Of a stretch of DNA of 64,000 nucleotides, positions 48,503 through 64,000 are shown in pieces; positions within the stretch are counted from its first letter, which is position 1; the number at the start of each line of letters is the position of its first letter. The stretch covers positions 1-64,000 of the forward strand of contig NZ_LR027856.1 of assembly GCF_900607235.1 (NCBI RefSeq), read 5' to 3'. The DNA comes from Olivibacter jilunii. Lineage in GTDB: Bacteria > Bacteroidota > Bacteroidia > Sphingobacteriales > Sphingobacteriaceae. The position numbers and the translations under genes were made by a program. The notes beneath the pieces were generated by a model. It was not told the DNA's origin, ran no database searches, and worked only from the letters and a program-made list of their open reading frames with translations.

Positions 48503-48574
48503 GGCCCGTTCGTCTAGGGGTTAGGACGCAAGATTTTCATTCTTGAAACAGGGGTTCGATTCCCCTACGGGCTA
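48503..48574 (+). tRNA. tRNA-Glu (anticodon TTC)
   Basis: A cloverleaf can be drawn: acceptor GGCCCGT with ACGGGCT (first pair G-T), D arm TCTAGGGGTTAGGA, anticodon stem CAAGA/TCTTG with loop TTTTCAT (anticodon TTC), and T arm CAGGGGTTCGATTCCCCTA, followed by ACC. It reads GAA/GAG codons. The 3' half is shared with the end of the recombinase gene on the opposite strand, so this tRNA is the insertion site of the mobile element and its 3' end is supplied by the element. Confidence 0.97.
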
Positions 48575-48576
48575 CC
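48537..48576. other. Probable left attachment site (attL) in the tRNA-Glu 3' half
   Basis: The recombinase coding frame enters the tRNA gene from the right and stops in the anticodon (TGA on the minus strand, 48539-48537), giving the C-terminal residues RRGIEPLFQE. This is the pattern of elements that restore a tRNA 3' end on integration. The exact core repeat cannot be set without the right end, which is outside the window. Confidence 0.55.
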
Positions 48577-50099
48577 TTAGGGGAAAGATTCAAATTCAAA
48601 GAATCTTTCCCCTTTTTTATGTCTTCTAATTTACTGTTAATCAGCAAAATAAGAGACAGTGCTTCGTTAAGCCGAGCGGTTCGATGCCCTGTTCCATCAA
48701 AACATAGATTTTCGGGGTACATCGAACCAATGATACGGCGCTTTTCCTCAATACCAGCATTTTTATAATGTATATCTATATTAGAATACTTTACTATAAC
48801 TATGTCAAGCAAGTTTTCAATAGTTCGAAGGTTTTCCGAGGATGTGGGTAGTTCGGTCAATTCCACTTCCAGTCTTTTTAGAATCTCATTGCATTCCGTT
48901 TTGATGATTTTGAAATCGGAATGGTCGATTTCATCTTTCATTAGCTTGCGCCTAGCATTAGCCAATATTTCTTCCTGTTCTTCTATTTTACTGTAAAGTA
49001 AAGTCCGTTCGTCAAGTTCTTCACGTCTTGAGCTTTTATATTCATCCATAACAACCATTTTAAACAGTTCTCCCGCTTCTGACGCAAGTTTGTACTGCAA
49101 TAAATGATTTTCAAAATAATCGTTCACATCCTCAGCTTTAAACCTGCTTCCGCAATCCGGTGACGAACAGTGATAATAGTAATAATGCTGATGCCGCCCC
49201 TTTGATGCACTGCCTGTCAACATTCTATGGCAGTTGGGACATTCAAGAAATCCTCTTAACGGTAACATATCCTTTGAGACAATTTTAACTGCCAAAGGTC
49301 TTTTGTTTCCGTTTAATATATCTTGGACTTTATAGAAAAGACTTTCAGAAATAATCGGCTGGTGTTGTCCCCGGACTAATTCCATTTCCTCATCTTTATG
49401 AGCAGGTACAACCACGTAACCACAGTAGACAGGATTCCGGATAATTTTCCAAAAATTGTTCCTTTCGCATTGAAGCCCCTTTTCATTAGCCATCTTACGT
49501 ACCTGTTCAGCAGCATAAACACCTTTAGAAAGTTCTTCAAAAATCCATTTCATAATATCTGCTTCAGGCAGTTTAGGCATAATATATTTCTTTCCATCAG
49601 GAGTAACCCTATTGATATAACCTTTAATCGCTGATCCCATCCAACGACCCTCTCTTCTAGCTTTTCTCATTCCATAAAACACGTTCAGGGCCCTTCTATC
49701 ATTTTCAACCTCTGGTACAGCAAGATATATAGCAAGCATCATTTTATTTTCCGGAATAGATACATCAACAGGTTGTTCGATAGCATTTATACTCGTATTT
49801 AGCGATCTTAACACACCGATCATTTCGTATGCGGCTTCTATACTCCTACTAAATCTGTCCCATTTGACACAAAGTATCTGAACAGCGGTTTTACGCATTT
49901 TCTTCAGTTGAACCAATAGCATTTGCCACTCTGGACGGTTGAATGTTTTGGCAGAATGGTCTTCACGGATAATGCCTAAAACTTCTATACCGTTTAGATG
50001 GCAATATTGCAAAAGTCTCTCTTCCTGTTCTCTTAAAGAATACCCCCTTCTGGCCTGTTCGTCTGTACTTACACGAATATAAAGATATGCTGAGATCAT
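48537..50099 (-). CDS. Large serine recombinase (integrase of the element)
   Basis: A 520-residue site-specific recombinase. The N-terminal resolvase domain has the nucleophile Ser11 in YIRVSTDEQARRGYSL and the conserved VKWDRFSRS near residue 79. The middle Recombinase domain (residues ~155-260) includes NPVYCGYVV. A zinc ribbon follows with CPNC (287-290) and CSSPDC (311-316). A coiled-coil stretch (residues ~350-420) precedes the C-terminus. The last residues are encoded by the tRNA-Glu sequence. It should catalyse integration and excision at that tRNA. Confidence 0.93.
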   Translation of the reverse strand: MISAYLYIRVSTDEQARRGYSLREQEERLLQYCHLNGIEVLGIIREDHSAKTFNRPEWQMLLVQLKKMRKTAVQILCVKWDRFSRSIEAAYEMIGVLRSLNTSINAIEQPVDVSIPENKMMLAIYLAVPEVENDRRALNVFYGMRKARREGRWMGSAIKGYINRVTPDGKKYIMPKLPEADIMKWIFEELSKGVYAAEQVRKMANEKGLQCERNNFWKIIRNPVYCGYVVVPAHKDEEMELVRGQHQPIISESLFYKVQDILNGNKRPLAVKIVSKDMLPLRGFLECPNCHRMLTGSASKGRHQHYYYYHCSSPDCGSRFKAEDVNDYFENHLLQYKLASEAGELFKMVVMDEYKSSRREELDERTLLYSKIEEQEEILANARRKLMKDEIDHSDFKIIKTECNEILKRLEVELTELPTSSENLRTIENLLDIVIVKYSNIDIHYKNAGIEEKRRIIGSMYPENLCFDGTGHRTARLNEALSLILLINSKLEDIKKGKDSLNLNLSPKVARRGIEPLFQE

Positions 50100-50407: not shown

Positions 50408-51439
50408 TTATTTGTAATATTTCTTCTTCAACCATAAACTGGCCCTAACCAGTGCTATCAATACGGGAACTTCTACCAATGGGCCGATGACGCCCACAAA
50501 TGCCTGTGGGGAATGAATGCCGAACACAGCAATAGATACGGCTATTGCCAGTTCAAAATTATTACCCGTAGCTGTAAATGCCACGGATGCGTTTTTGTCA
50601 TAAGGAACGTTCAATAATTTGTTGACAAAGAAGCTCACAAAAAACATTAATACAAAATAGATGATTAAGGGAGTTGCTACTTTTATCACATCCATTGGTA
50701 ATTCTAATATTTTATGGCCTTTCAAACTGAACATCAACACTATAGTGAACAGCAAAGCGTACAATGTGATCGGTGATATTATCGGCACAAATTTCCGGTT
50801 AAACCATTCTATACCTTTTAATCTGGTCAGGAAGTAACGGCTTATAAAACCTGCAAAGAAAGGAATACCTAGATATATCAGTACACTCTCAGTCACGTCT
50901 TGCATGGACACGCTTACATTGAAACTGGCCAATCCTAATTTATTGGGCAGTACATTGATGAACAGCCAAACCAAAAAACTGTAAGTAAGAATCTGGAAGA
51001 TGCTGTTTAGTGCTACCAATAGGGCTGCATATTCCCTGTTGCCTTTTGCCAAGTCATTCCATACGATTACCATTGCGATACATCTTGCCAGCCCGATCAA
51101 TATCAGGCCGGTCATATAATCCGGTTCGTTCCTTAAAAACAAAACAGCCAAGCCGAACATCAGCACCGTACCGATTACCCAATTGAGCGATAAGGATATT
51201 GCGATTACTTTTTTATCCTTAACCGCTTTTGGAAGTAATGTGTAATCTACTTTTGCCAAAGGAGGGTACATCATCAGTATAAGCCCTATTGCCAGGGGAA
51301 TATTGGTAGTGCCTACGGATAAAGTATCTGTGAGATCGGAAATGTTCGGAAAAATATACCCTAACATAATTCCCAAAGCCATAGCAAGGAATATCCACAG
51401 GGTAAGGTAACGGTCAAGGAATTTAAGTTTTGGTTGCAT
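50408..51439 (-). CDS. acr3: ACR3 family arsenite efflux transporter
   Basis: Pumps arsenite out across the inner membrane. The 343-residue protein has ten hydrophobic helices, starting [20 protein letters not shown]. The conserved ACR3 segment [19 protein letters not shown] contains the essential cysteine near residue 120, and [19 protein letters not shown] and [20 protein letters not shown] are also diagnostic. It is the last gene of the ars operon, three bases after the arsenate reductase gene. Confidence 0.95.
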
Positions 51440-51442
51440 CGG

Positions 51443-52054
51443 CTATTTATTAATCTCCGAAAAAACATAGAACATTTCTGCTGCGATCTGTAAACTTCTT
51501 TCTGTATAAACCTCTTTCTGTTCCGGCGTATTGTCTGAAATTTTAGGGTCTTCATAGTTGATGGACACTCTTTTTTCCGCACCGGGAATAAAAGGACAAC
51601 CATTGTCTGCCTGTGAACAGGTCATAACAGCGGCAAATGTCGATACAGGATTGTAAGGGTTATCATATTTTTTGGAAAAACCGATTATAGGTAAAGCGTT
51701 GTCACTGTATTTAATGGCATATACAGGATTATTGATCTCTGTTATCCTGAAAATATTGAAGCCCTGATCGGTCAATGTTTCTGCCACTTTCGGGAACAGT
51801 GCCGTTTCATCTGTACCACCTGAATAACAATATACATTTGGAATGCTAAAATATGTGGCGGCTGTTTGGGCCCATACCTGTGATAAGTGGCTTCTACGTG
51901 AATTATGGGTACAGATGAAATTGATATTTATATCCTGCTGCCCGTTTGTTTTTTGTTGTACAAAATCAATCAACGGTTTTAATAGGGTTTTACGCTTTTC
52001 GCTGATTGTTTGTCGCCTCAATTTTTCTATTGTCTGTGATAAAGCTGAATACAT
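51443..52054 (-). CDS. Arsenate reductase-like LMW protein tyrosine phosphatase
   Basis: Reduces arsenate to arsenite for export, by family and context. The 203-residue protein has an N-terminal helical extension (~45 residues) and the LMW-PTP P-loop FICTHNSRRSHLSQVWAQTA near residues 47-66. The C-terminal cysteine pair needed for the disulfide relay is likely in MTCSQADNGCPFIPG near residue 144-158. NYEDPKISDNTPEQKEVY gives the general-acid DP loop. It lies between the acetyltransferase gene and acr3 in the ars operon. Confidence 0.88.
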   Translation of the reverse strand: MYSALSQTIEKLRRQTISEKRKTLLKPLIDFVQQKTNGQQDININFICTHNSRRSHLSQVWAQTAATYFSIPNVYCYSGGTDETALFPKVAETLTDQGFNIFRITEINNPVYAIKYSDNALPIIGFSKKYDNPYNPVSTFAAVMTCSQADNGCPFIPGAEKRVSINYEDPKISDNTPEQKEVYTERSLQIAAEMFYVFSEINK

Positions 52055-52079
52055 GATAATTTATTTGGTTTGATACCTG

Positions 52080-52571
52080 TTAATTTGTTCCAACGCTTTT
52101 GCTTCTACGCTCCATTAGTACATTGTCTTTCCAAACACCGTTTTTCTTTCCTATTTTCTCCCTGTAACCTACTAGCCTGAAACCGCACTTTTCGTGTAGT
52201 CTGATGCTGCTTTGATTTTCAGAGAAGATTGCCGATTGTAAAGTCCAGATGCCGTTTATTTCGCTCTGTGCGATCAATTCATGCAGTAATAGTTTACCGA
52301 AACCTTTTCCTCTTTCGTCTTGTCCTATGTAAATACTCACTTCTGCTACCCCTGCATAAACACATCTGCCTGAAACAGGTGTCAATGCTGCCCAACCGAT
52401 CATCTTGTTATGCTCATAAATACTGATCCTGCAAAAGCCGAGATGCCCTCTGTCCCATTCTTCCCATTGGGGCAGATCGTTTTGAAAAGTGGCTATATTG
52501 GTAGCTAACCCTTGCCTGTAGATTTCTGCCACTTCAGCAAAATTATCTATTGTAATTGGCCTTGTTTCCAT
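52080..52571 (-). CDS. GNAT acetyltransferase, ArsN / phosphinothricin-acetyltransferase-like
   Basis: A 163-residue acetyltransferase with ITIDNFAEVAEIYRQGLATNIATF at the N-terminus (quoted in parts: EIYRQGLATNIATF), VSIYIGQDERGKGFGKLLLHEL as the acetyl-CoA loop, and SIRLHEKCGFRLVGYREKIG. This is the ArsN/Pat layout. ArsN1-type enzymes acetylate organoarsenicals such as phosphinothricin-like arsinothricin and protect against them; here this is inferred from position in the ars operon. The start codon follows the DUF6428 stop with no gap. Confidence 0.82.
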   Translation of the reverse strand: METRPITIDNFAEVAEIYRQGLATNIATFQNDLPQWEEWDRGHLGFCRISIYEHNKMIGWAALTPVSGRCVYAGVAEVSIYIGQDERGKGFGKLLLHELIAQSEINGIWTLQSAIFSENQSSIRLHEKCGFRLVGYREKIGKKNGVWKDNVLMERRSKSVGTN

Positions 52572-53036
52572 TTAGCAACATCCTGAATTTGGTGTGCAGC
52601 AGGCACTGTTCAGGTTGGATAATTTAACTTTTTGCTTCTCCGCAGGAATGCCGCATGCATCACTAGCCAGGCAGGCCGTTTGTTTATTTTTTAACACAAA
52701 ATGGTTCCCGTTAAAACCAAGATCGTATTTACCGATCGTTTCGCGTTGATATTCTACCTCTATTTCTGCATCTTCAATCCCTAATTTTTCTTCGGATAAC
52801 CGGATGATGTTTAATAGTTTGGCAGGTTTCAGCCTGTGTTGGTAATCATGGGCATTCCACAATTGAAAATTGACGATCTTTTCATTTCTGATGGTTCCCC
52901 CGCAGTCAATAAAATGTTTTGTAACCATTCCAATTTCTGTGACGTGGAAATGTTCGGGAACAGGCGTCCCGTCTGTTAACTGAAATTCAACATTTTCCAA
53001 TGCCGGTAAGATTTCTTTGATTTTTGATAGCTTCAT
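52572..53036 (-). CDS. DUF6428-like protein with a Cys-rich tail
   Basis: A 154-residue protein often found in Bacteroidota ars operons; I recall it as DUF6428. The N-terminal ~105 residues contain KIKEILPALENVEFQL and PEHFHVTEIGMVTKHFIDCG and NEKIVNFQLWNAHDYQHRLK. The C-terminus is rich in cysteine (CLASDACGIPAEK, then NSACCTPNSGCC at the very end), suggesting arsenite or metal binding. Function is unproven. It starts after the inner operator and abuts the acetyltransferase gene. Confidence 0.75.
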   Translation of the reverse strand: MKLSKIKEILPALENVEFQLTDGTPVPEHFHVTEIGMVTKHFIDCGGTIRNEKIVNFQLWNAHDYQHRLKPAKLLNIIRLSEEKLGIEDAEIEVEYQRETIGKYDLGFNGNHFVLKNKQTACLASDACGIPAEKQKVKLSNLNSACCTPNSGCC

Positions 53037-53065
53037 GATACATAGATTAAAACTGAATATTTAGT

Positions 53066-53090
53066 GTTATATTGCAATATAACGATGTTA
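53066..53090. promoter_or_regulatory. ArsR operator-like palindrome inside the ars operon
   Basis: GTTATATTGCAATATAAC (53066-53083) is a perfect 18-bp palindrome in the 73-base gap between arsR and the DUF6428 gene. The stretch 53069-53090 matches the stretch 53052-53073-equivalent in front of arsR (53452-53473) at 19 of 22 positions, so it is very likely a second ArsR site. Confidence 0.7.
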
Positions 53091-53109
53091 TAAAGTACAA
53101 AAAATGCCG

Positions 53110-53439
53110 TTAACAGCATTGTCCAACTTTTACATCCTGTTCAAAGAAAAGGTTAAACAGATTTTGTATTTCTTTCCATTTCTTTTCCTCAATGCAGTAG
53201 CAAACGGACTTCCCCTCAATTGTTCCCTGAATGATGCCGATGTTTTTCAGCTCCTTTAAGTGTTGTGAAATGGTAGCCTGTGCCAGTCCCAATACATCAA
53301 CCAGATCATTACAGATACAGGCTTTCTGATTGATAATATATTGAAGTATGGCTATACGTGCCGGATGTCCCAAAACTTTAAACAGTGATGCCAGCCTGTT
53401 CTGTTCGTCTGTGAATATTTCTGATTTTGTAAGTCCCAT
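53110..53439 (-). CDS. arsR: ArsR family arsenite-responsive repressor
   Basis: A 109-residue winged helix-turn-helix repressor. The order LASLFKVLGHPARIAILQYI, ACICNDLVDVLGLAQATISQ and HLKELKNIGIIQGTIEGKSV is typical of ArsR. The cysteines at ACICNDLV (metal-binding helix alpha-3 region) and the C-terminal VGQCC are candidate arsenite ligands. It is the first gene of the ars operon. An operator-like repeat lies directly before its start, which implies autoregulation. Confidence 0.94.
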   Translation of the reverse strand: MGLTKSEIFTDEQNRLASLFKVLGHPARIAILQYIINQKACICNDLVDVLGLAQATISQHLKELKNIGIIQGTIEGKSVCYCIEEKKWKEIQNLFNLFFEQDVKVGQCC

Positions 53440-55207: not shown

Positions 55208-56344
55208 TTACTTAAAACTTAAATCCAAAGTTTGTACATTTTGGATACGATCTATTCGAAAACTCCTACGATCTTGTCTCAATAAGCAATATCCTATTAA
55301 ATAAACAACGTTCAAAGTACTTTCCGTCACTTCAACAATTTCGAATTGCTTAACTGTACGAAGGGACAACTGATCATTACGGTTCTTGTATTTAATCCTT
55401 ATAAAGGACGATGTAGAAGCAGCTTTTTTGATAACCTCAATTATCTCAAGGTTTATATACTGCGTTGTGGCGGCGGTTGGTGTTGTAACAATGTCGAATT
55501 GAGGAGCCTCTTCCAAAAAAGGAGTTTTTGAAACGGTAAAGGTATTAGAAGGGATAATTTCAAATTCTTCAACTTTATTTGATAGGTAATCATAAGCTCT
55601 AAGAAAGTAGTAGCCACCCCGAGAAGCGATGTTTCGAGGCTTACATACCGTTTTTGTATTAGTGCCTTTGACGGTTAGATATCCGGACCGTTTAATGCAA
55701 CGAGTCAATGTGGAGATTGTTTCTGGGTTAACTTCTTCGATTAATTCTAAAGCTTCTATCGGAAGAACATTACTTGAAACTTTATCACTTGTAGGATCAA
55801 AAAAATTAAATTTTATATCTAACGATGGTACATGCCGTATATCAGCGTCTTTTTTGTCTTTCAGTGCGTGTTTAGTTTTATGAGGCTGATGATCTACTAC
55901 CTGCAATATAGGAGGTAAAAAAGATAGCAACGAATTAATTACGGTGCTGCCAATCCCGTTATTTAAAGAATTATCGTCATAGGTTAAAAAGGATTTCTTT
56001 TTCCCAAGTTCTATAGAGGCTGTTTTAAATACGATTTTATCACCCCGACTTAATATGTTCTTGTTGATAGAAGAAGTACATTTGGCAATTAGTTTCAGAT
56101 CTTCTTCCTCTATTTCAGCGTATATAAATTTATAAGGCTTCGGAGAAAACCATGCACATCTATATTTGAAAGTGTCAACTTTCTTTCCGCCAAAACTTGG
56201 TTTAGCTTTGTAAATTTCCACTATTACCATTAAGGGAGGAAGCATTATGTGGTCGCCGCTAATGACGATTTCGCTACATTCAGGGATGTAAGGATGCGCT
56301 TTTAATGTTACAACATCACCTATGCTAAAAAGTCTAGATTCCAT
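55208..56344 (-). CDS. WYL-domain protein with tandem WYL-like segments
   Basis: A 378-residue protein from ATG 56344 (an earlier TTG is less likely). The N-terminal ~95 residues (LFSIGDVVTLKAHPYIPEC, PPLMVIVEIYKA, KYRCAWFSPKPYKFIYAEI) are a Bacteroidota module I cannot name. A first WYL-like segment is GYLTVKGTNTKTVCKPRNIA and GGYYFLRAYDYLSNKVEEFE. The C-terminal segment is a clear WYL domain: IRIKYKNRNDQLSLRTV, VVYLIGYCLLRQDRRSFRID, RIQNVQTLD. WYL proteins bind nucleic acid and regulate defence genes. It is divergent from the reverse transcriptase gene with ~460 bases between them. Confidence 0.65.
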   Translation of the reverse strand: MESRLFSIGDVVTLKAHPYIPECSEIVISGDHIMLPPLMVIVEIYKAKPSFGGKKVDTFKYRCAWFSPKPYKFIYAEIEEEDLKLIAKCTSSINKNILSRGDKIVFKTASIELGKKKSFLTYDDNSLNNGIGSTVINSLLSFLPPILQVVDHQPHKTKHALKDKKDADIRHVPSLDIKFNFFDPTSDKVSSNVLPIEALELIEEVNPETISTLTRCIKRSGYLTVKGTNTKTVCKPRNIASRGGYYFLRAYDYLSNKVEEFEIIPSNTFTVSKTPFLEEAPQFDIVTTPTAATTQYINLEIIEVIKKAASTSSFIRIKYKNRNDQLSLRTVKQFEIVEVTESTLNVVYLIGYCLLRQDRRSFRIDRIQNVQTLDLSFK

Positions 56345-56803
56345 AAGTAAAAATAACAATAAAAGCCATAAATTTATTATATTTGTAGATAGCCTTGCGG
56401 CATGAGGACGATAGACGTTTAGTTAGGCCGTAAAGTTTTTCAGAAGGAGTTATATTTTTTCTCTCGATGAAAAATTTACTGTTGTATGAAAAGGACAACA
56501 GGAACGAGATTGTCATGTATATGCTCTATTTGACCAGTTAGGGCTTTCAGGATATCAAGCACTCTCACGAGTAGCAGAATCACTGAATAAGCCGTAGGAT
56601 CTTCTATAGTGCTAATGCAGCAATTTACAAATATACATATAAATATGTTAACTATCATCATTATTGGTGTTATTAAGTGAAACATTGAACTGTGTATGAC
56701 ATTGGAAAAGTTAGTGTGACTCAGTTATTGGGTGCTGGCCTTACCGAGACGTAAGTTATGTTTATCAAAAAAATCCGTTACACCATGCTGCAAGGCTTAC
56801 TTT
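56345..56803 (+). ncRNA. Candidate non-coding leader RNA of the reverse transcriptase gene
   Basis: Between the divergent WYL and reverse transcriptase genes lie ~460 bases. TATATTTG (56378-56385) would start a plus-strand RNA near 56392. It can form a hairpin of TTGCGGC (56395-56401) with GCCGTAA (56427-56433), followed by AAGTTTTT. An open stretch of 35 codons without an ATG (56490-56597) may be a gene remnant. ACATAT-AA-ATATGT (56635-56648) is a perfect palindrome. Reverse transcriptase defence systems commonly carry a template or effector RNA just upstream, so an RNA here is plausible but unproven. Confidence 0.35.
56378..56385 (+). promoter_or_regulatory. -7 promoter element upstream of the reverse transcriptase leader
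   Basis: TATATTTG matches TANNTTTG; no good -33 element is visible. It is ~420 bases before the reverse transcriptase ATG, so it would give a long leader or a separate small RNA. Confidence 0.45.
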
Positions 56804-58402
56804 ATGATACCACCATTTGATAAGAGACCTTCTTGGCTAAAAAGCAGGGGCTACATCCATATTACACCTAAAATTGATGTTTACAGACGTTATCAGGAGA
56901 TATATTCGAAGGTTCATAGTGAAAAATTTGTGGCACGACATGGCTTTTTTCCTTTGATTCATTCTGTAATTAAAGAAAGAAAATATAAAAAAATCCCTGG
57001 TGGAGGACGAGCACATTCTTTCAAAAAAGGAAATGAGTATAAACAAACTGCTAAGCTTAGACCACTACATTATGCGACGCATATTGATGCTATGATCTTT
57101 GGTTGCTACGCTGAGAAACTTTTAAAGCTTTATGAAGATGAATTGAAGCTATATCCAGGACTTTCTGATTGTGTGATTGCGTACAGAAAAATAGAGGTCG
57201 AGGAGGCAGAAGAGGAAGATTTTGTGGAATACGATGATGAGAATTCGCATGGTAAAAGTACAATTCACTTTGCGTATGAGGCTTTTGAGGAAATAAAGCG
57301 AAGGGCTTCTGATGGATGTATTGTTCTTATGTTTGATATTAAAAGTTTCTTTAGCGAACTTAATCACAAAAGATTAAAAAAAGCATGGTGCGATTTGTTG
57401 AAAGTTGAAAGGTTGAATCAAGCACATTTCAACGTTTTCAACGCAGCTACTAATTTCAGGTATATATTAAAAGATGAATTAAGGGTGGAACCTCAGAAAA
57501 GAGGTAGACGTTCAGGTTTTGATGAAAAGAAATTAGCTTCGATACGGAAATATAATGGAGTGGAATCTTTTTTTTCTTCAATTGATGATTTCAAGAAAGC
57601 AATCGAAAATAGGGATTTGAAAGTCTATAAACAGCCGTTTATGAAAAAGAATAGACCTGTCGGTATACCGCAAGGATTGCCCATTAGTGCTGTCTTGGCT
57701 AACCTATATTTGTTGGAGTTTGATAAAGTAATATTGGAAAATATTGTCAATAAAGCGGGTGGATTTTACAGGAGGTATTCAGACGATATAATGATTATTT
57801 GTAAACCCGAAGAAGCAACAGAGATTGAAAAATTTGTTCTCGAAGAAATTCAAAAAAGCGATGTCGAAATCAGCACGGATAAAACAGAGAAGTTTTTATT
57901 CAGCATAAAGCAGATTAGTCCCCGAATTAACAGAATAACATCTACACTCATAGGCGACGATGGTAAGCATCCAGGCAAACCATTAACATACTTGGGATTC
58001 GAATTTTACGGCTATCGTACGTTAATAAAGTCCGCCAATTTAGCAAAGTATTACAGAAGGATGATTACCTCGCTAAAGCGCAAAGTGAATAGAGCTGACA
58101 AAAGGCGTTATAGCCATGACGGAGATCTAATTTTATTTCCCCGGCAACTAAAAAGAATTTATAATAATATTAACCTTAACAAGGAGAAAGTTCCTAAGAA
58201 AAAAAAGATTTTGGTTAAGAATGCACAAGGGTTTTACCATTTTAATTTCAAACCCTTGCCTTTAAAAGCCGGGAGTAACTATCTTTCATACACCAGAAGG
58301 GCGAGTAGAATAATGCAACAGCCTGAAATTCATAAACAAATCAGAAACCGTAGAAATATTTTTTATTCAGCTATGGCGAAGCACATAAAACAGAAAGTGT
58401 AA
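56804..58402 (+). CDS. Stand-alone reverse transcriptase, UG/DRT-like (probable phage defence)
   Basis: A 532-residue protein from ATG 56804 (a GTG 24 codons earlier is possible). RT motifs are in order: RPLHYATHIDAMIFGCYAEK (motif 1-2, residues ~86-104), CVIAYRKI, motif 3 LMFDIKSFFSEL with catalytic Asp178, motif 4 GIPQGLPISAVLANLYLLEF (287-306), motif 5 FYRRYSDDIMII with the YSDD pair at 325-328, motif 6 ISTDKTEKFLF and motif 7 YLGFEFYG. The C-terminal ~110 residues are basic and unassigned. There is no maturase HNH domain and no retron NAxxH/VTG signature, which points to the unknown-group (UG/DRT) reverse transcriptases known for phage defence. The exact subtype is not determined. Confidence 0.8.
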   Translation: MIPPFDKRPSWLKSRGYIHITPKIDVYRRYQEIYSKVHSEKFVARHGFFPLIHSVIKERKYKKIPGGGRAHSFKKGNEYKQTAKLRPLHYATHIDAMIFGCYAEKLLKLYEDELKLYPGLSDCVIAYRKIEVEEAEEEDFVEYDDENSHGKSTIHFAYEAFEEIKRRASDGCIVLMFDIKSFFSELNHKRLKKAWCDLLKVERLNQAHFNVFNAATNFRYILKDELRVEPQKRGRRSGFDEKKLASIRKYNGVESFFSSIDDFKKAIENRDLKVYKQPFMKKNRPVGIPQGLPISAVLANLYLLEFDKVILENIVNKAGGFYRRYSDDIMIICKPEEATEIEKFVLEEIQKSDVEISTDKTEKFLFSIKQISPRINRITSTLIGDDGKHPGKPLTYLGFEFYGYRTLIKSANLAKYYRRMITSLKRKVNRADKRRYSHDGDLILFPRQLKRIYNNINLNKEKVPKKKKILVKNAQGFYHFNFKPLPLKAGSNYLSYTRRASRIMQQPEIHKQIRNRRNIFYSAMAKHIKQKV

Positions 58403-59095: not shown

Positions 59096-59506
59096 ATGCC
59101 CAGGAAGAAAGTCAAAGATCAAGAGCAGGTTTTAAGCCATCCAATTATTCTAAGGATCACAGAGAGTGAATTCAATAAGCTAGAGAAGATCCGGCAAGAA
59201 AGTGATTGCAAAAGCATAGGGGAAGTGGTGAGAAAAATCCTTGCCAAACGCAAGATTACTTACCTGCACAGAGACATTTCCATGAATGGCCCAATGGAGG
59301 AACTTGCCCTAATCCGCAAGGAAATTAAGGCAATCGGAATCAATATTAACCAACAGACACATCGCTTTCACACAAGTCAAAGCAATGGAGAACGGGCCTT
59401 CCATGCCCTGAAAACAGCAAGCATATATAAGCAACTGGAACCCAAGATAGATGAACTGTTAGATATCGTTTCAAAACTAGCTAAGAAATGGTTGCAAAGA
59501 TCATAA
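59096..59506 (+). CDS. Mobilisation accessory protein (MobC/MbpA-like)
   Basis: A 136-residue protein from ATG 59096. The first half carries a ribbon-helix-helix-like segment (LSHPIILRITESEFNKLEKI) and DCKSIGEVVRKILAKRKITY. The second half has the relaxosome motif EELALIRKEIKAIGININQQ found in Bacteroidota mobilisation proteins. It should bind oriT and help the relaxase nick. Its end overlaps the relaxase gene by 19 bases. Confidence 0.85.
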   Translation: MPRKKVKDQEQVLSHPIILRITESEFNKLEKIRQESDCKSIGEVVRKILAKRKITYLHRDISMNGPMEELALIRKEIKAIGININQQTHRFHTSQSNGERAFHALKTASIYKQLEPKIDELLDIVSKLAKKWLQRS

Positions 59507-60786
59507 TCGGCGAAAGTATCAAGGGAATACTGCATTATAACGAGCAAAAGGTTACAGAAGGCAGTGCGAGGCTCATTTTGGCAAACGGTTTCGCCACAGA
59601 GATCGAAGAACTCAATTTTCAAAACAAAGCTGAACGGTTTGAGCACCTAAACCGCCTAAGACCTAGCGTAAAAAAGAATGCCTTACATATTTCGCTGAAC
59701 TTCCATTCCAGTGAGAAAATGGACGATGCCAAAATGCAACGGATTGCCACTGCCTATATGGAACGGATCGGTTTTGGAGAGCAGCCCTTTTTGGTGTACA
59801 GACACAGCGATGCAGCGCACCATCATTTCCATATCGCAACTGTCAGCATCAAACGGGACGGCACACCGATCAATCTGAATAACATAGGAAAAATGGAATC
59901 CGAAAAGGCAAGAAAATCCATCGAAGAAGAGTTTGGGTTAATGCCTGCCGAAAGTAAAAAATATAGAGTAGATCAGTCCATAAAGCCTCTCGATACAAAT
60001 AAAGCAAAATACGGTGAACTGCCTACCAAACGGGCGATAGGTAATGTGGTCACTGCCGTGATGAACAGTTACAGGTTTACTTCTTTGGCAGAATATAATG
60101 CAGTCTTAGGTCAATTTAATGTGACAGCGGACAGAGGACATGAGGATAGCGAAATGTTCAAAAAGAAAGGGCTCCTCTATTCGATTTTGGATTCGCAGGG
60201 TAACAAAATCGGCGTCCCGATCAAGGCGAGTAGTTTTTACAATAAACCAATCCTGAACAAACTGGAAAAAAAGTTTGAGGAAAATGCTGAAAAAAGGAAG
60301 CCATATCGAAATGACCTCAAAAAACGGATAGATCAGGTACTAAACAGATACGAGCGGTTGACTAAGACAACCCTACTTTCGGAACTGAAAAAGAATGGAA
60401 TAGCCTTGATCTTCCGCCAGAATACAGAAGGATTTATATACGGTGCAACTTTCGTGGATCACCGCCATAAATGCGTTTTTAATGGCAGTAGCCTTGGAAA
60501 AGGTAGCCTTGGAAAAGATTACAGTGCCAAAAGGCTCAAAGAGCTATTGAGCGATACGGATAGAATAAGAACCTATCTAAAAGCTCCGGCTACATTGACC
60601 AATTACCTGAAGCCTAAACAAAAGTTAAAATTAATGTCAAGGGCAAAAAATACATTATCAGTACATCCGCTAATATCTACCTCAAAAGAGGTGCTCTTGG
60701 AACTGCTGAACCCCGAACATCCTCATTTTAATCCCTACCTAAAGCAGAAGAAAAGAAAACGGAAACCAAAACCAAGGCAATTATGA
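59488..60786 (+). CDS. Relaxase / mobilisation nuclease (MobA/VirD2-like domain)
   Basis: Nicks and covalently binds the element's DNA at oriT. The 432-residue protein starts VAKIIIGESIKGILHYNEQK and has ALHISLNFHSSEKMDDAKMQ. The metal-binding histidine motif HSDAAHHHFHIATVSIKRDG sits near residues 106-125, with candidate catalytic Tyr in the N-terminal part (HYNEQK). The C-terminal third is very basic. It overlaps the accessory gene upstream by 19 bases and the coupling protein gene by four (ATGA). Confidence 0.93.
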   Translation: MVAKIIIGESIKGILHYNEQKVTEGSARLILANGFATEIEELNFQNKAERFEHLNRLRPSVKKNALHISLNFHSSEKMDDAKMQRIATAYMERIGFGEQPFLVYRHSDAAHHHFHIATVSIKRDGTPINLNNIGKMESEKARKSIEEEFGLMPAESKKYRVDQSIKPLDTNKAKYGELPTKRAIGNVVTAVMNSYRFTSLAEYNAVLGQFNVTADRGHEDSEMFKKKGLLYSILDSQGNKIGVPIKASSFYNKPILNKLEKKFEENAEKRKPYRNDLKKRIDQVLNRYERLTKTTLLSELKKNGIALIFRQNTEGFIYGATFVDHRHKCVFNGSSLGKGSLGKDYSAKRLKELLSDTDRIRTYLKAPATLTNYLKPKQKLKLMSRAKNTLSVHPLISTSKEVLLELLNPEHPHFNPYLKQKKRKRKPKPRQL

Positions 60787-62801
60787 ACACAGGAGAAGAC
60801 ATACAAGGGCTGCGTAAGACCCTCGATTTTACACGTCTCATCAGCATTTTTATTCTAGCGATACATTTCTACCTAAGCTGTTATAAGGCATTCGGGCATT
60901 GGGGATGGACAACAGAGATCAGTGACCGGATCATTGCTGTTGTCTCAAGAACAGGACTGTTTTCCGGTATCCTGCTCCCAAAATTAGCGGCTTTAGCACT
61001 GCTTTTTATATTCCTATTGGGAGCAAAAGGGAAGAAAGATGAAAAGATGGAGGTTAGAACCATTGTAGCATATTTGATCACAGGACTGATTCTTTATTTC
61101 GTCAGTATTCTATGTTTTTTTATCCCGACCAGGATCGAAATAATAGCCATACTTTATATACTCGTGACTTCAATCGGATACCTTCTTATCCTTACAGGTG
61201 GAACCTATCTTTCAAGGATTATAAAGGAAAAGCTTAACAACGATGTGTTCAATACAGACAACGAAACCTTCCCACAGGAAGAGCGATTGTTAGAGAACGA
61301 GTATTCCATAAACCTTCCTGCTAAATACCATCTTAAAGATAAGATAAAGGACAGTTGGATCAATTTTATCAATCCTTTTCGTGGCCTGTTGGTGGCAGGT
61401 ACTCCGGGAGCAGGTAAAAGCTATTTCGTTATCAGGCATGTTATCGATCAGCATATCCGTAAAGGATTCAGTATGTTTCTTTACGATTTTAAGTTCGATG
61501 ATCTTACGAAAATAGCCTATAATAAGCTTCTACAGTACAGAAATAATTATACTGTAAAACCCACATTTTGGATTATTGACTTCGATACCATTTACCATAG
61601 ATGTAACCCCTTAGATCCCCAGAGCATGGAAGATGTAACGGATGCTACAGAGGCAAGCCGTACCATTATGCTTGGGCTGAACAGGGACTGGAAAGAGGGT
61701 GATTTTTTCGTAGAAAGTCCAATCAACTTCTTAACAGCCATTATCTGGTTTTTAAGGAAATATGAAGATGGCAAATATTGTACACTGCCGCATGCCATAG
61801 AATTAATGCAGCAGGATTATGATCCGTTGTTTGCAGTCCTGCAAACGGAAGAAGAAATAAAAGTGTTGATCAATCCTTTCATATCTGCGCTTCAAATGAA
61901 AGCACGAGAGCAACTTGAAGGACAGATCGCAAGTGCTAAAATAGGACTGGCAAGGCTGTCTTCACCACAATTGTACTATGTTTTAAGCGGCAACGATTTC
62001 ACCTTGGATGTTAACAACCCCAATGAACCCAAAATTGTAGCAATGGGCAACAATCCCCAAAAGGTACAGACCTACGGGGCGGTTCTTTCCCTTTACGTTA
62101 ACAGAATGATAAAGCTTGTTAACAGAAAGAAACAGTTGAAATGTTCCCTGATTTTCGATGAATTTCCCACGATTTATGTTGGCGGTTCAGCAGGCATGCC
62201 CCAACTTTTGGCCACAGCCAGATCCAATTTAGTGTCCACCACCCTAGCAGTGCAAAATTACGAGCAGTTAAAGAAGGATTATGGAGCGGAACAGGCTGAT
62301 GTGATTACAAGCATTGTTGGGAATATTATAAGCGGTCAGGTTACAGGAAATACGGCAAAGAAGTTGTCCGAAATTTTTGGGAAGATAGTACAGGATAGAC
62401 AAAGCCTTAGCATAAACAGTAGTGATACCTCGATATCCAAATCTACTCAATTGGACTTTGCCATTCCCGCCAGTAAAATAGCAACTTTGTCTTCCGGTGA
62501 ATTTGTTGGCGTAGTCTCTGATACTCCTGATTGTAAGATTCCACAGAAAATTTTTCACGTTGAAATCCAGAATGACCATGAAGCGATCAAAAATGAAGAA
62601 ATGAGCTACAAACCTATACCACGGGTAGAGCAGGTCAGTCTAAAGGATATTCAGGAAAACTATATAAGGATTAAAGAGGATGTCTTAAATCTGATGAATA
62701 CTGAACTGCAAAAACTCAATGCAGAATCCGAAAGCTCAAAAACTGAAAACAAAGAAAAAGGAGGCGAAGAAAGCAGTTCAGGCATGCCTATGTCCCTATA
62801 G
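60783..62801 (+). CDS. Type IV coupling protein (VirD4/TraG family)
   Basis: Connects the relaxosome to the secretion channel. The 672-residue protein has N-terminal membrane helices (LISIFILAIHFYLSC, LAALALLFIFLLGA, TIVAYLITGLILYFVSIL and a fourth near 120-140). Walker A GTPGAGKSYFVIRH is near residue 205. YDFKFDDLTKIAYN and Walker B LIFDEFPTIYVGG near residue 455 follow, as does LATARSNLVSTTLAVQNYEQ. In Bacteroidota it is often annotated MobC or TraG. Its start overlaps the relaxase stop. Confidence 0.92.
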   Translation: MNTGEDIQGLRKTLDFTRLISIFILAIHFYLSCYKAFGHWGWTTEISDRIIAVVSRTGLFSGILLPKLAALALLFIFLLGAKGKKDEKMEVRTIVAYLITGLILYFVSILCFFIPTRIEIIAILYILVTSIGYLLILTGGTYLSRIIKEKLNNDVFNTDNETFPQEERLLENEYSINLPAKYHLKDKIKDSWINFINPFRGLLVAGTPGAGKSYFVIRHVIDQHIRKGFSMFLYDFKFDDLTKIAYNKLLQYRNNYTVKPTFWIIDFDTIYHRCNPLDPQSMEDVTDATEASRTIMLGLNRDWKEGDFFVESPINFLTAIIWFLRKYEDGKYCTLPHAIELMQQDYDPLFAVLQTEEEIKVLINPFISALQMKAREQLEGQIASAKIGLARLSSPQLYYVLSGNDFTLDVNNPNEPKIVAMGNNPQKVQTYGAVLSLYVNRMIKLVNRKKQLKCSLIFDEFPTIYVGGSAGMPQLLATARSNLVSTTLAVQNYEQLKKDYGAEQADVITSIVGNIISGQVTGNTAKKLSEIFGKIVQDRQSLSINSSDTSISKSTQLDFAIPASKIATLSSGEFVGVVSDTPDCKIPQKIFHVEIQNDHEAIKNEEMSYKPIPRVEQVSLKDIQENYIRIKEDVLNLMNTELQKLNAESESSKTENKEKGGEESSSGMPMSL

Positions 62802-62879
62802 ATTTATTGCCGTGATTTTTTTGGGTGGCAAACATGAAAAATGTGCCACCCACTTTTATCAATAAATAATTTTTTCTTT

Positions 62880-63452
62880 ATGGAAATTTTATCAATGATG
62901 GAAGAACTAAGAAAAAAACTATTGACCTTAAAGTCAGCAGATGAAAAAACGATCAATCAATTGGAGTTTTTTTTTAATCGTGTTCACTTTAAACGAAACG
63001 GTATAATATATACTTCCGGTTATTCCGCTTCAATGCTCTATTATATATCCAGAGGTCTGTTAAAGGGTGTGGTCAGCGATGATGAAGAGGAACATTGCCT
63101 TTGGTTCATTGATTGCGGTTTCATTATTCCCGGAAATGGTTTCCTAACCGGAACTAAAACCGTAGAAAGTATAGAAGTACTTGCCAATACAACTGGATAT
63201 TCCTTAAATCTTGTGCGGGCAGATACTGTTGCACGGAACAACCCACAGATGTACCGTATGCTTTTGGAAATTTATGAAGAATCATGGTTGGAAGGTAGGA
63301 AAAGAGAGATCATGTTGCGAAAACAAACAGCTTCCGATCGGTACAGTTATTTTGTAAAAAATTTCCCCAGTTTATGGAGGAGGCTCACGCTAGAACAGCA
63401 GGCCGAATATCTCCATATCGGTCGAAAATATTTCTATAACATCAAAAAATAG
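62880..63452 (+). CDS. Crp/Fnr-type transcriptional regulator
   Basis: A 190-residue protein from ATG 62880. The cyclic-nucleotide-binding-like fold is visible (INQLEFFFNRVHFKRNGIIY, SMLYYISRGLLKGVV). It is followed by a long helix and a short C-terminal helix-turn-helix (LTLEQQAEYLHIGRKYFYNI). The ligand is unknown; the phosphate-binding Arg/Glu of cAMP binders is not evident. Bacteroidota members often lack cAMP binding. It sits between the mob genes and the LanKC-like gene, close to a palindromic site. Confidence 0.8.
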   Translation: MEILSMMEELRKKLLTLKSADEKTINQLEFFFNRVHFKRNGIIYTSGYSASMLYYISRGLLKGVVSDDEEEHCLWFIDCGFIIPGNGFLTGTKTVESIEVLANTTGYSLNLVRADTVARNNPQMYRMLLEIYEESWLEGRKREIMLRKQTASDRYSYFVKNFPSLWRRLTLEQQAEYLHIGRKYFYNIKK

Positions 63453-63518
63453 ATCCTATTCTAATCTCAATTGCTAGAGCCTAATACATTGCCTTCTCTT
63501 GGTTGCTATGCATGATTT

Positions 63519-63560
63519 TGTCTGAAATCAGACATAGTTCCTGTATGTTTTCAGACATAG
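63519..63560. promoter_or_regulatory. Palindromic operator candidate upstream of the LanKC-like gene
   Basis: TGTCTGA-AA-TCAGACA (63519-63534) is a perfect 16-bp palindrome with the TGT-N10-ACA spacing of Crp/Fnr-type boxes. The half-site TCAGACATAG occurs at 63528-63537 and again at 63551-63560. It lies between the Crp/Fnr-like gene and the next gene, so that regulator is the natural candidate to bind it. Confidence 0.55.
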
Positions 63561-63644
63561 AATTTGTCCGGTTTAGGGAAGAGATACTTCCGAAATGGAT
63601 AGCTAAAAAAGTTGTCCACTTCCCGAACTTTACTGTACAAAATC

Positions 63645-64000
63645 ATGAAGATGGAAGCAACCCAATTCATATCAAAAGTAGAAACGAAATTTAAGTCTTA
63701 CGGTTTCCTTTTGGATAAATGGGGAATCCCTTATCGTGAAGATGGTGTTTGGTTTGTTCACGGGAAACCGGATCATGATAATAAGTGGATGATATTTCTC
63801 TCTATTCCTTTAAAGAACGCTGAACAGATATTGGATGAAGTATTAGCCTACCTTGCCAAAAATGACTATGCCTTTGTTCTGATAAAAGACCAGCTTCAGC
63901 ATAACCGGATCAACAATAATGCTTTTCCGCTAACATTGTTTGGAAAAGCTTTGATGATTTTTATACTAAACCCTGAATTGTGTAATACCGTGGCAGGAGA
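63645..64000 (+). CDS. N-terminal part of a class III lanthionine synthetase-like (LanKC/RamC) protein
   Basis: An open frame of 118 codons that runs off the window. The product has GIPYREDGVWFVHGKPDHDN, WMIFLSIPLKNAEQILDEVL, NDYAFVLIKDQL, HNRINNN and FGKALMIFILNPEL. The order (a W/G-rich start, an hvS..p.NAe..L segment, F-hhK and a GK-hhh-iY-like strand) resembles the lyase-like N-terminal domain of LanKC/RamC enzymes, which install lanthionine or labionin bridges in peptides. The kinase and cyclase domains would lie outside the window, so the call is tentative. Start at ATG 63645 is likely; TTG 63612 is possible. Confidence 0.4.
   Translation, partial: MKMEATQFISKVETKFKSYGFLLDKWGIPYREDGVWFVHGKPDHDNKWMIFLSIPLKNAEQILDEVLAYLAKNDYAFVLIKDQLQHNRINNNAFPLTLFGKALMIFILNPELCNTVAG

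Follow-up and report, generated by a model that had tools for sequence, protein, structure and literature searches.

The gene cut by the end of the window (the whole 64,000-nucleotide stretch of Olivibacter jilunii DNA that was analysed) is, judged from its complete sequence, that of a LanKC-derived membrane kinase and not that of a lanthionine synthetase. We give about even weight to the fuller reading that the product is a single-pass membrane Ser/Thr kinase descended from class III LanKC, that it phosphorylates a peptide precursor which would acquire a disulfide rather than a lanthionine, and that the cassette encoding it is carried on a conjugative-type element. The locus probably does not serve to make an antibiotic and belongs instead to a peptide-handling system not described before.

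Domains and active-site residues of the edge-gene product

The cut gene was read to its end on the same contig (C9, 238,092 bp), where positions keep the numbering of the window. The features of the locus and of the element that carries it are:

48503-48576, plus strand: tRNA-Glu, probable left end of the element (position from the tRNA search)
48537-50099, minus strand: serine recombinase abutting the tRNA-Glu (domain match)
59488-60786, plus strand: relaxase of the element, in the region directly upstream
60783-62801, plus strand: type IV secretion system (T4SS) coupling protein of the element (MobC/TraG-like), just before the Crp-like gene
62880-63452, plus strand: Crp/Fnr-like regulator gene, 190 aa (open reading frame, weak domain match)
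63519-63534, no strand: palindrome TGTCTGA-AA-TCAGACA with perfect 7-bp arms around AA, candidate operator
63542-63557, no strand: imperfect second copy of the palindrome, TGTATGTTTTCAGACA, beginning 23 bp after the first
63645-64000, plus strand: portion of the LanKC-derived kinase gene inside the window, with the RamC_N-like lyase domain; the whole gene extends to 66098 (Pfam, contig reading)
66095-66538, plus strand: MauE-like gene (PF07291, 89.8 bits), overlapping the kinase gene by 4 nt
66617-66844 (6617-6844 in L004), plus strand: broken peptide copy, interrupted by one in-frame stop and lying just ahead of the intact copy (by eye)
66986-67216, plus strand: two-Cys peptide gene (open reading frame)
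67293-68660, minus strand: TlpA-like gene, facing the kinase, MauE and peptide genes
68647-70035, minus strand: SusD-like gene of the cassette
70042-72996, minus strand: SusC-like gene of the cassette

Translation of the edge gene from an ATG at 63651 gives a product of 815 aa and from an ATG at 63645 one of 817 aa, with the stop at 66098. The product consists, in order, of a RamC_N lyase-like domain (PF25816; residues 29-151, 32.5 bits against a Pfam cut-off of 27), a protein kinase domain (Pkinase; 72.1 bits, cut-off 31.7), a single membrane helix (residues 463-481, mean hydropathy 2.47) and a C-terminal domain of about 310 aa. The LANC_like cyclase domain of Pfam had no match in the complete 815-aa product and is present in 4 of 11 aligned relatives of the kinase. 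The NCBIfam synthetase models both scored far under cut-off (class IV, 149 of 650 bits; class III, 83 of 575). The top PDB match of the family profile was 8car, deposited as a Ser/Thr kinase and aligned across all three domains; the next three were chains that carry the name class III LanKC (8sao, 8sap and 8sam), and PknB kinase domains were also among the matches. The LanKC-like N-terminus claimed by the original prediction was therefore upheld, by the RamC_N score and by the LanKC chains among the best PDB matches. That prediction had asked for a reading past position 64000 for kinase and LanC-like domains, and had named the lack of kinase and cyclase domains as counting against its lanthipeptide reading; the kinase is there and the cyclase is not.

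Scans of viral contigs with the kinase protein and with profile A2 found no relative, and plasmid records searched with the kinase protein gave one match only at E ≤ 1e-15, from Haematobacter massiliensis (24% identity over half of the query). A search of genome contigs with generic kinase motifs returned 80 loci, mostly of unrelated kinases and from many phyla by title, and was set aside.

Residues were compared with those of ThurKC, for which the available part of PMC10604976 reports that mutating K65, K94, K108 or R163 abolishes dehydration, that H67 and D152 mutants are impaired, that the leader peptide is held between the lyase domain and the kinase N-lobe, and that a DFE motif is typical of LanKC. 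We equate chains 8sao, 8sap and 8sam with ThurKC, since the seven residue numbers given in that paper all fit them. At ThurKC K65, H67, K94, K108, K117, D152 and R163 the kinase product has M, F, V, N, K, C and A, so that one of the seven scored lyase residues is kept (K117; an eighth named residue, R191, lies outside the scoring). All five scored kinase residues (beta-3 Lys, HRD Asp, Asn, and the Asp and Glu of DFE) are intact.

The same pattern extends over the family, for which residues were counted in those 40 frames, out of 48, that reach 400 aa (the window kinase among them), 39 of them with the lyase part; the short or broken frames of L176 and L181-L186 were left out, the L186 row being without the lyase part. 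The beta-3 Lys is present in 39/39 proteins, and the HRD Asp, the Asn and the DFE residues in 40/40. Among the 39 proteins with the lyase part, K117 is Lys in 38 and Arg in one, K108 is found in none (the reference 8car itself has Ala there), and K65, K94, D152 and R163 each occur in one protein, all of these LanC-bearing; in some relatives Arg replaces K65 or K94. H67 is retained in 14 of 23 LanC-bearing proteins compared to 0 of 16 LanC-less ones. From these residues, the lyase is very probably dead in the window protein and in most of the family; we stop short of certainty because the LanY enzyme CaoY works without equivalents of K65 and H67, as stated in the available part of PMC9486802. 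CaoY keeps the Lys equivalent to K94 (same source), whereas the window kinase has lost it.

The product resembles LanKC (8sao/8sap/8sam, 8car) in having a lyase-like domain followed by a kinase, in the DFE motif and in homology over both domains. It differs in being without the LanC cyclase, in its lost lyase residues, in having a membrane helix and another C-terminal domain, and in the signal-like start of the accompanying peptide. Because there is no cyclase, six of the seven scored lyase residues are lost and the five scored kinase residues are intact, we do not regard it as a lanthionine synthetase. A LanKC subtype with a changed cyclase, of the noursin kind, was considered and rejected, since those enzymes have a cyclase according to the available part of PMC10206099.

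Elsewhere in the same genome, a LanC-bearing relative in another setting (L022, 6784-14113, contig C2) keeps H67, K94, K117, D152 and R163 and is, of the proteins in this genome, the strongest candidate for a genuine class III-like enzyme. Its neighbours are two small peptides and, as named by eye, a 1060-aa FAD-type and a thioredoxin-like protein. Caetano et al. reportedly described lanthipeptides of Pedobacter lusitanus in 2020, and that work may touch LanKC-like genes of this group.

The C-terminal domain gave no meaningful Pfam, NCBIfam or PDB match, whether nine members were searched singly or as a nine-sequence profile, and we therefore infer its fold and membrane side. A beta-propeller, our first guess, did not gain support: the family and PDB searches gave no propeller, and one weak internal repeat was seen (E 0.41). 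This membrane domain was found in 54 of 399 family genomes, where it occurs alone, fused to MauE (7 loci) or fused to the kinase. MauE was present in all 20 kinase-free membrane-domain loci that were fetched and was fused to the domain in 7, which is no rate, as the 20 were chosen by hand and all 7 with long frames were included on purpose; none of the 20 had a kinase at E ≤ 1e-4. The same cassette therefore exists without the kinase, which makes the kinase optional. In a tree of 39 of the 40 kinase proteins and 2 references, the fused kinases form one clade (support 99/93 for four rows; 100/99 for five rows with L023).

A cassette of MauE, a small peptide and SusCD

The conserved cassette runs in the order Crp-like gene, kinase, MauE, small two-Cys peptide and then convergent TlpA-SusD-SusC. 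Defined as MauE beside a two-Cys signal-like peptide together with convergent TlpA-SusD-SusC, it is present at the window locus. MauE (PF07291) is usually met in a methylamine context; its partners in this cassette are a small peptide and SusCD.

Locus counts cover the 43 loci whose kinase frame has 250 aa or more, the window's included, and are not independent, the sampled sequences being kin: MauE lies on the kinase strand in 38, at most 100 nt downstream or overlapping in 35, and the full convergent TlpA, SusD and SusC set is near the kinase (within 9 kb) in 34. After the kinase comes a LanC-like domain in 24 loci, the membrane domain in 4 and nothing more in 15. The last figure includes L023, scored as alone on account of a frame break before its C-terminal domain, L176 and L182, which are broken or short, and L178 and L179, in which the membrane-domain protein is a separate gene in the cluster. 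Beside one kinase-alone cluster (L025, 3645-6627), a gene encodes both a C39 peptidase and an ABC membrane domain, and a small open reading frame shows, by eye, a double-glycine-like motif; these may be a bacteriocin system of their own.

A profile of the lyase domain and kinase N-lobe detected the kinase in 37 of 399 family genomes and in 3 of 395 class genomes, and RamC_N (PF25816) was matched in 3 of 395 genomes across the phylum, the genome under study being included in each count. The Bacteroidota host named by the original prediction is borne out by the genes of this genome. On contig C12 the same genome has a sister cassette that contains no kinase and consists of relaxase, coupling protein, Crp-like gene, MauE, peptide and a membrane domain standing alone; on contig C7 it has a cassette remnant. 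MauE had no match in plasmid records at 1e-6, and no description of the cassette was found in the literature among the matches listed.

The predicted Crp-like gene at 62880-63452 is present, though its product matches the cNMP-binding domain weakly, at 22.8 bits against a Pfam cut-off of 27.5. Starting further upstream, from an ATG at 62841, would give 203 aa with the same stop at 63452, and the tail of the protein looks helix-turn-helix-like by eye. Two paralogues in the same genome (56.5% and 59.5% identity) each lie beside TlpA, SusD and SusC. The perfect palindrome was likewise found as described. A single palindrome with arms of at least 7 in the 198-bp gap appeared in 6.7% of 5000 dinucleotide shuffles and is not striking alone; a palindrome with a similarly close repeat nearby appeared in 0.04% of 5000 shuffles, a statistic picked after the pair had been seen. 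With up to one mismatch allowed, the 6.7-Mb genome has a single occurrence of the site. An operator common to the loci was rejected: among up to four best perfect inverted repeats per locus, a similar one (GTCT-N6-AGAC) was seen, by eye, only in L164. At this locus the Crp-like protein probably controls the operon through the paired palindromes.

In 28 peptides picked by hand and aligned, the second Cys is invariant, the first is present in at least 90%, and the start is hydrophobic and signal-like. DUF6520 (PF20130) was matched by 19 of the 28 at E ≤ 0.01; the window peptide scored 14 bits against a family cut-off of 25.4, and the DUF6520 model had no match in this genome. In a survey, 24 of 151 family genomes gave matches (15 above the cut-off), as did 0 of 14 control genomes and 0 of 5 genomes of the window's genus, its own included. 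The names DUF6520 and NVEALA were absent from the literature matches of the complete search. DUF6520 peptides beside MauE and TlpA-SusD-SusC share the cassette and the peptide type with the window locus, which is unlike them in having a LanKC-derived kinase fused to a membrane domain and a peptide under the family cut-off.

Automatic picking gave a two-Cys peptide at 51 of the 70 loci and none at 19; all four fused-kinase clusters have one, that of L164 having been missed by the open reading frame filter and found later. In these 51 automatic picks, the ten residues past the second Cys hold on average 4.8 Ser/Thr in LanC-bearing clusters (n = 22). The averages are lower elsewhere: 1.0 where the kinase is fused to the membrane domain (n = 3), 1.9 where it stands alone (n = 10), 2.0 where only the membrane domain is present (n = 11) and 2.2 where that domain is fused to MauE (n = 5). 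The sequences being related, this is a correlation. The pattern fits residual modification where LanC is kept and none on the tail where it is lost. Since the fused-kinase peptides are so poor in Ser/Thr past the second Cys, the tail is unlikely to be the phosphosite. Before the first Cys, Ser/Thr number 4.3 in fused-kinase (n = 3), 2.9 in kinase-alone, 1 in the one cluster with kinase and separate domain, and 1.8 and 2.4 in kinase-free clusters, with overlapping classes and no clear separation (the LanC class lies outside this count, and the doubtful L033 pick was omitted).

The carrying mobile element

The mobile element foreseen for this DNA was confirmed by the relaxase and coupling protein genes, the recombinase at the tRNA-Glu and Tra-type genes. 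The upstream mob region also holds a small Mob-like protein (named by eye). RteC, TraG, TraJ and TraM genes lie at 86.7-99 kb of C9, those of TraG, TraJ and TraM type from about 26 kb past 64000, and the stretch between about 48 and 77 kb has a G+C of 0.35-0.41, down from about 0.42. A right end was not found in the first 100 kb of the contig, which has no exact tRNA repeat of at least 14 nt and no match to the flanks of relatives. A second tRNA-Glu, on C12, has a related recombinase stretch (76% DNA identity); the sister cassette on that contig (L021; at about 78 kb), with mob genes of its own, lies roughly 20-30 kb from it. Across the 70 loci, a coupling protein was present anywhere in the fetched stretch in 8 and an RteC-like gene in 18. 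The plasmid records that matched the mob region (3-13% of it) were all, 10 of 10, from Hymenobacter, Bacteroides or Prevotella.

Other genes are carried along. At 55208-58402, a reverse transcriptase matching DRT2 (PADLOC, 427 bits) and a divergent WYL/YodC gene of the RT-associated kind (371 bits) are a DRT2-like defence pair on the same element. An SBF-family transporter and an ArsR-family regulator (both from Pfam) at 50408-53439, with genes between them named by eye and one of 203 aa having no Pfam match, make up a probable arsenic resistance cluster. Further on (13845-14702 in L004), one protein combines nucleotidyltransferase and HEPN domains in a toxin-antitoxin-like fusion.

Proposed role of the kinase

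In the scheme we favour, the lyase-like domain and the kinase N-lobe would still bind the precursor peptide, by analogy with ThurKC, and the kinase would phosphorylate it in the cytosol at the membrane. The peptide may then be exported through its signal-like start. The C-terminal half, predicted to be periplasmic, would act with MauE and TlpA on the cysteines to give a disulfide and not a lanthionine, and the outer-membrane SusCD pair would come after this step. Weighing against the scheme are the score of the window peptide under the DUF6520 cut-off, the 19 loci that yielded no peptide pick, the Ser/Thr-poor tails of the fused-kinase peptides and the cassettes that have no kinase.

The main rival, which we consider a real possibility although the less probable one, is a sensor: the periplasmic domain would sense the peptide or another ligand imported by SusCD, and the kinase would signal on, for example to the Crp-like regulator. 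PknB-type transmembrane Ser/Thr kinases consist of a cytosolic kinase, one helix and an extracytoplasmic domain, and the window protein resembles them in its kinase, single helix and presumably extracytoplasmic C-terminal domain; it is unlike them in its lyase-like N-terminal domain, its different C-terminal domain and its peptide cassette. Besides this topology, the paired palindromes ahead of the kinase gene speak for sensing, as does a Crp-like gene on the kinase strand in 24 of the 43 kinase loci, including all 4 fused ones, although the other 19 are without it. Most kinases of the family, however, are without the membrane domain (24 with LanC, 15 with neither), so that sensing across the membrane cannot be the family-wide role, and a sensor would leave the retention of the lyase-like domain unexplained. 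Phosphorylation of the peptide is ranked above sensing because the soluble and the membrane forms of the kinase share neighbouring MauE and peptide genes.

That the gene is a decaying remnant, a non-functional fusion left on the mobile element from a LanKC that lost its cyclase and lyase, appears very unlikely. The broken second peptide copy next to the intact one would agree with decay, as would the nearest relative found (L023, 46% identity), whose gene is split by a frame break, but the four intact fused genes form one supported clade with the kinase residues preserved, and cassette genes lie near all four (in L164, MauE is 1.2 kb off).

That a mobile element here encodes a working class III lanthionine synthetase and its lanthipeptide, as originally predicted, is highly improbable, despite the RamC_N and kinase matches, the DFE motif common to LanKC and the existence of LanC-bearing relatives in the same cassette. 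Besides the missing cyclase domain and the six lost lyase residues, the ABC transporter that the prediction called for did not appear, no ABC signature motif being present in open reading frames of at least 150 aa over 48.4-100 kb of the contig. Its small precursor was matched in part: a small peptide adjoins, but with a signal-like start, two Cys and few Ser/Thr past the second. Equally hard to credit is an anti-phage kinase on the element, as the PADLOC matches (MkoA, 84 bits; PD-T4-6, 81; mad6, 73) cover the kinase region from about residue 184, as in our judgement any Ser/Thr kinase would give, and the cassette context is one of peptide and SusCD, even with the DRT2-like pair about 5 kb upstream.

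The family bears on how such genes are annotated, as it could be mislabelled by genome mining in which a kinase together with a lyase-like domain is enough to call a class III lanthipeptide. It also presents a stepwise rebuilding of a natural-product enzyme, in which the kinase residues persist throughout, very few lyase residues survive and the cyclase has been retained, dropped or replaced by a membrane domain. We would tentatively, and with some doubt, extend the peptide-kinase reading to the whole family: lanthionine synthetases may have turned into peptide kinases that discarded the lyase and kept the cyclase, dropped it or swapped it for a membrane-anchored periplasmic domain, which would hand a phosphorylated, disulfide-bonded peptide to MauE/TlpA and SusCD, the whole being spread by conjugative elements. 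Should the kinase act on the peptide, the existence of secreted phosphopeptides in Bacteroidota could be put to the test.
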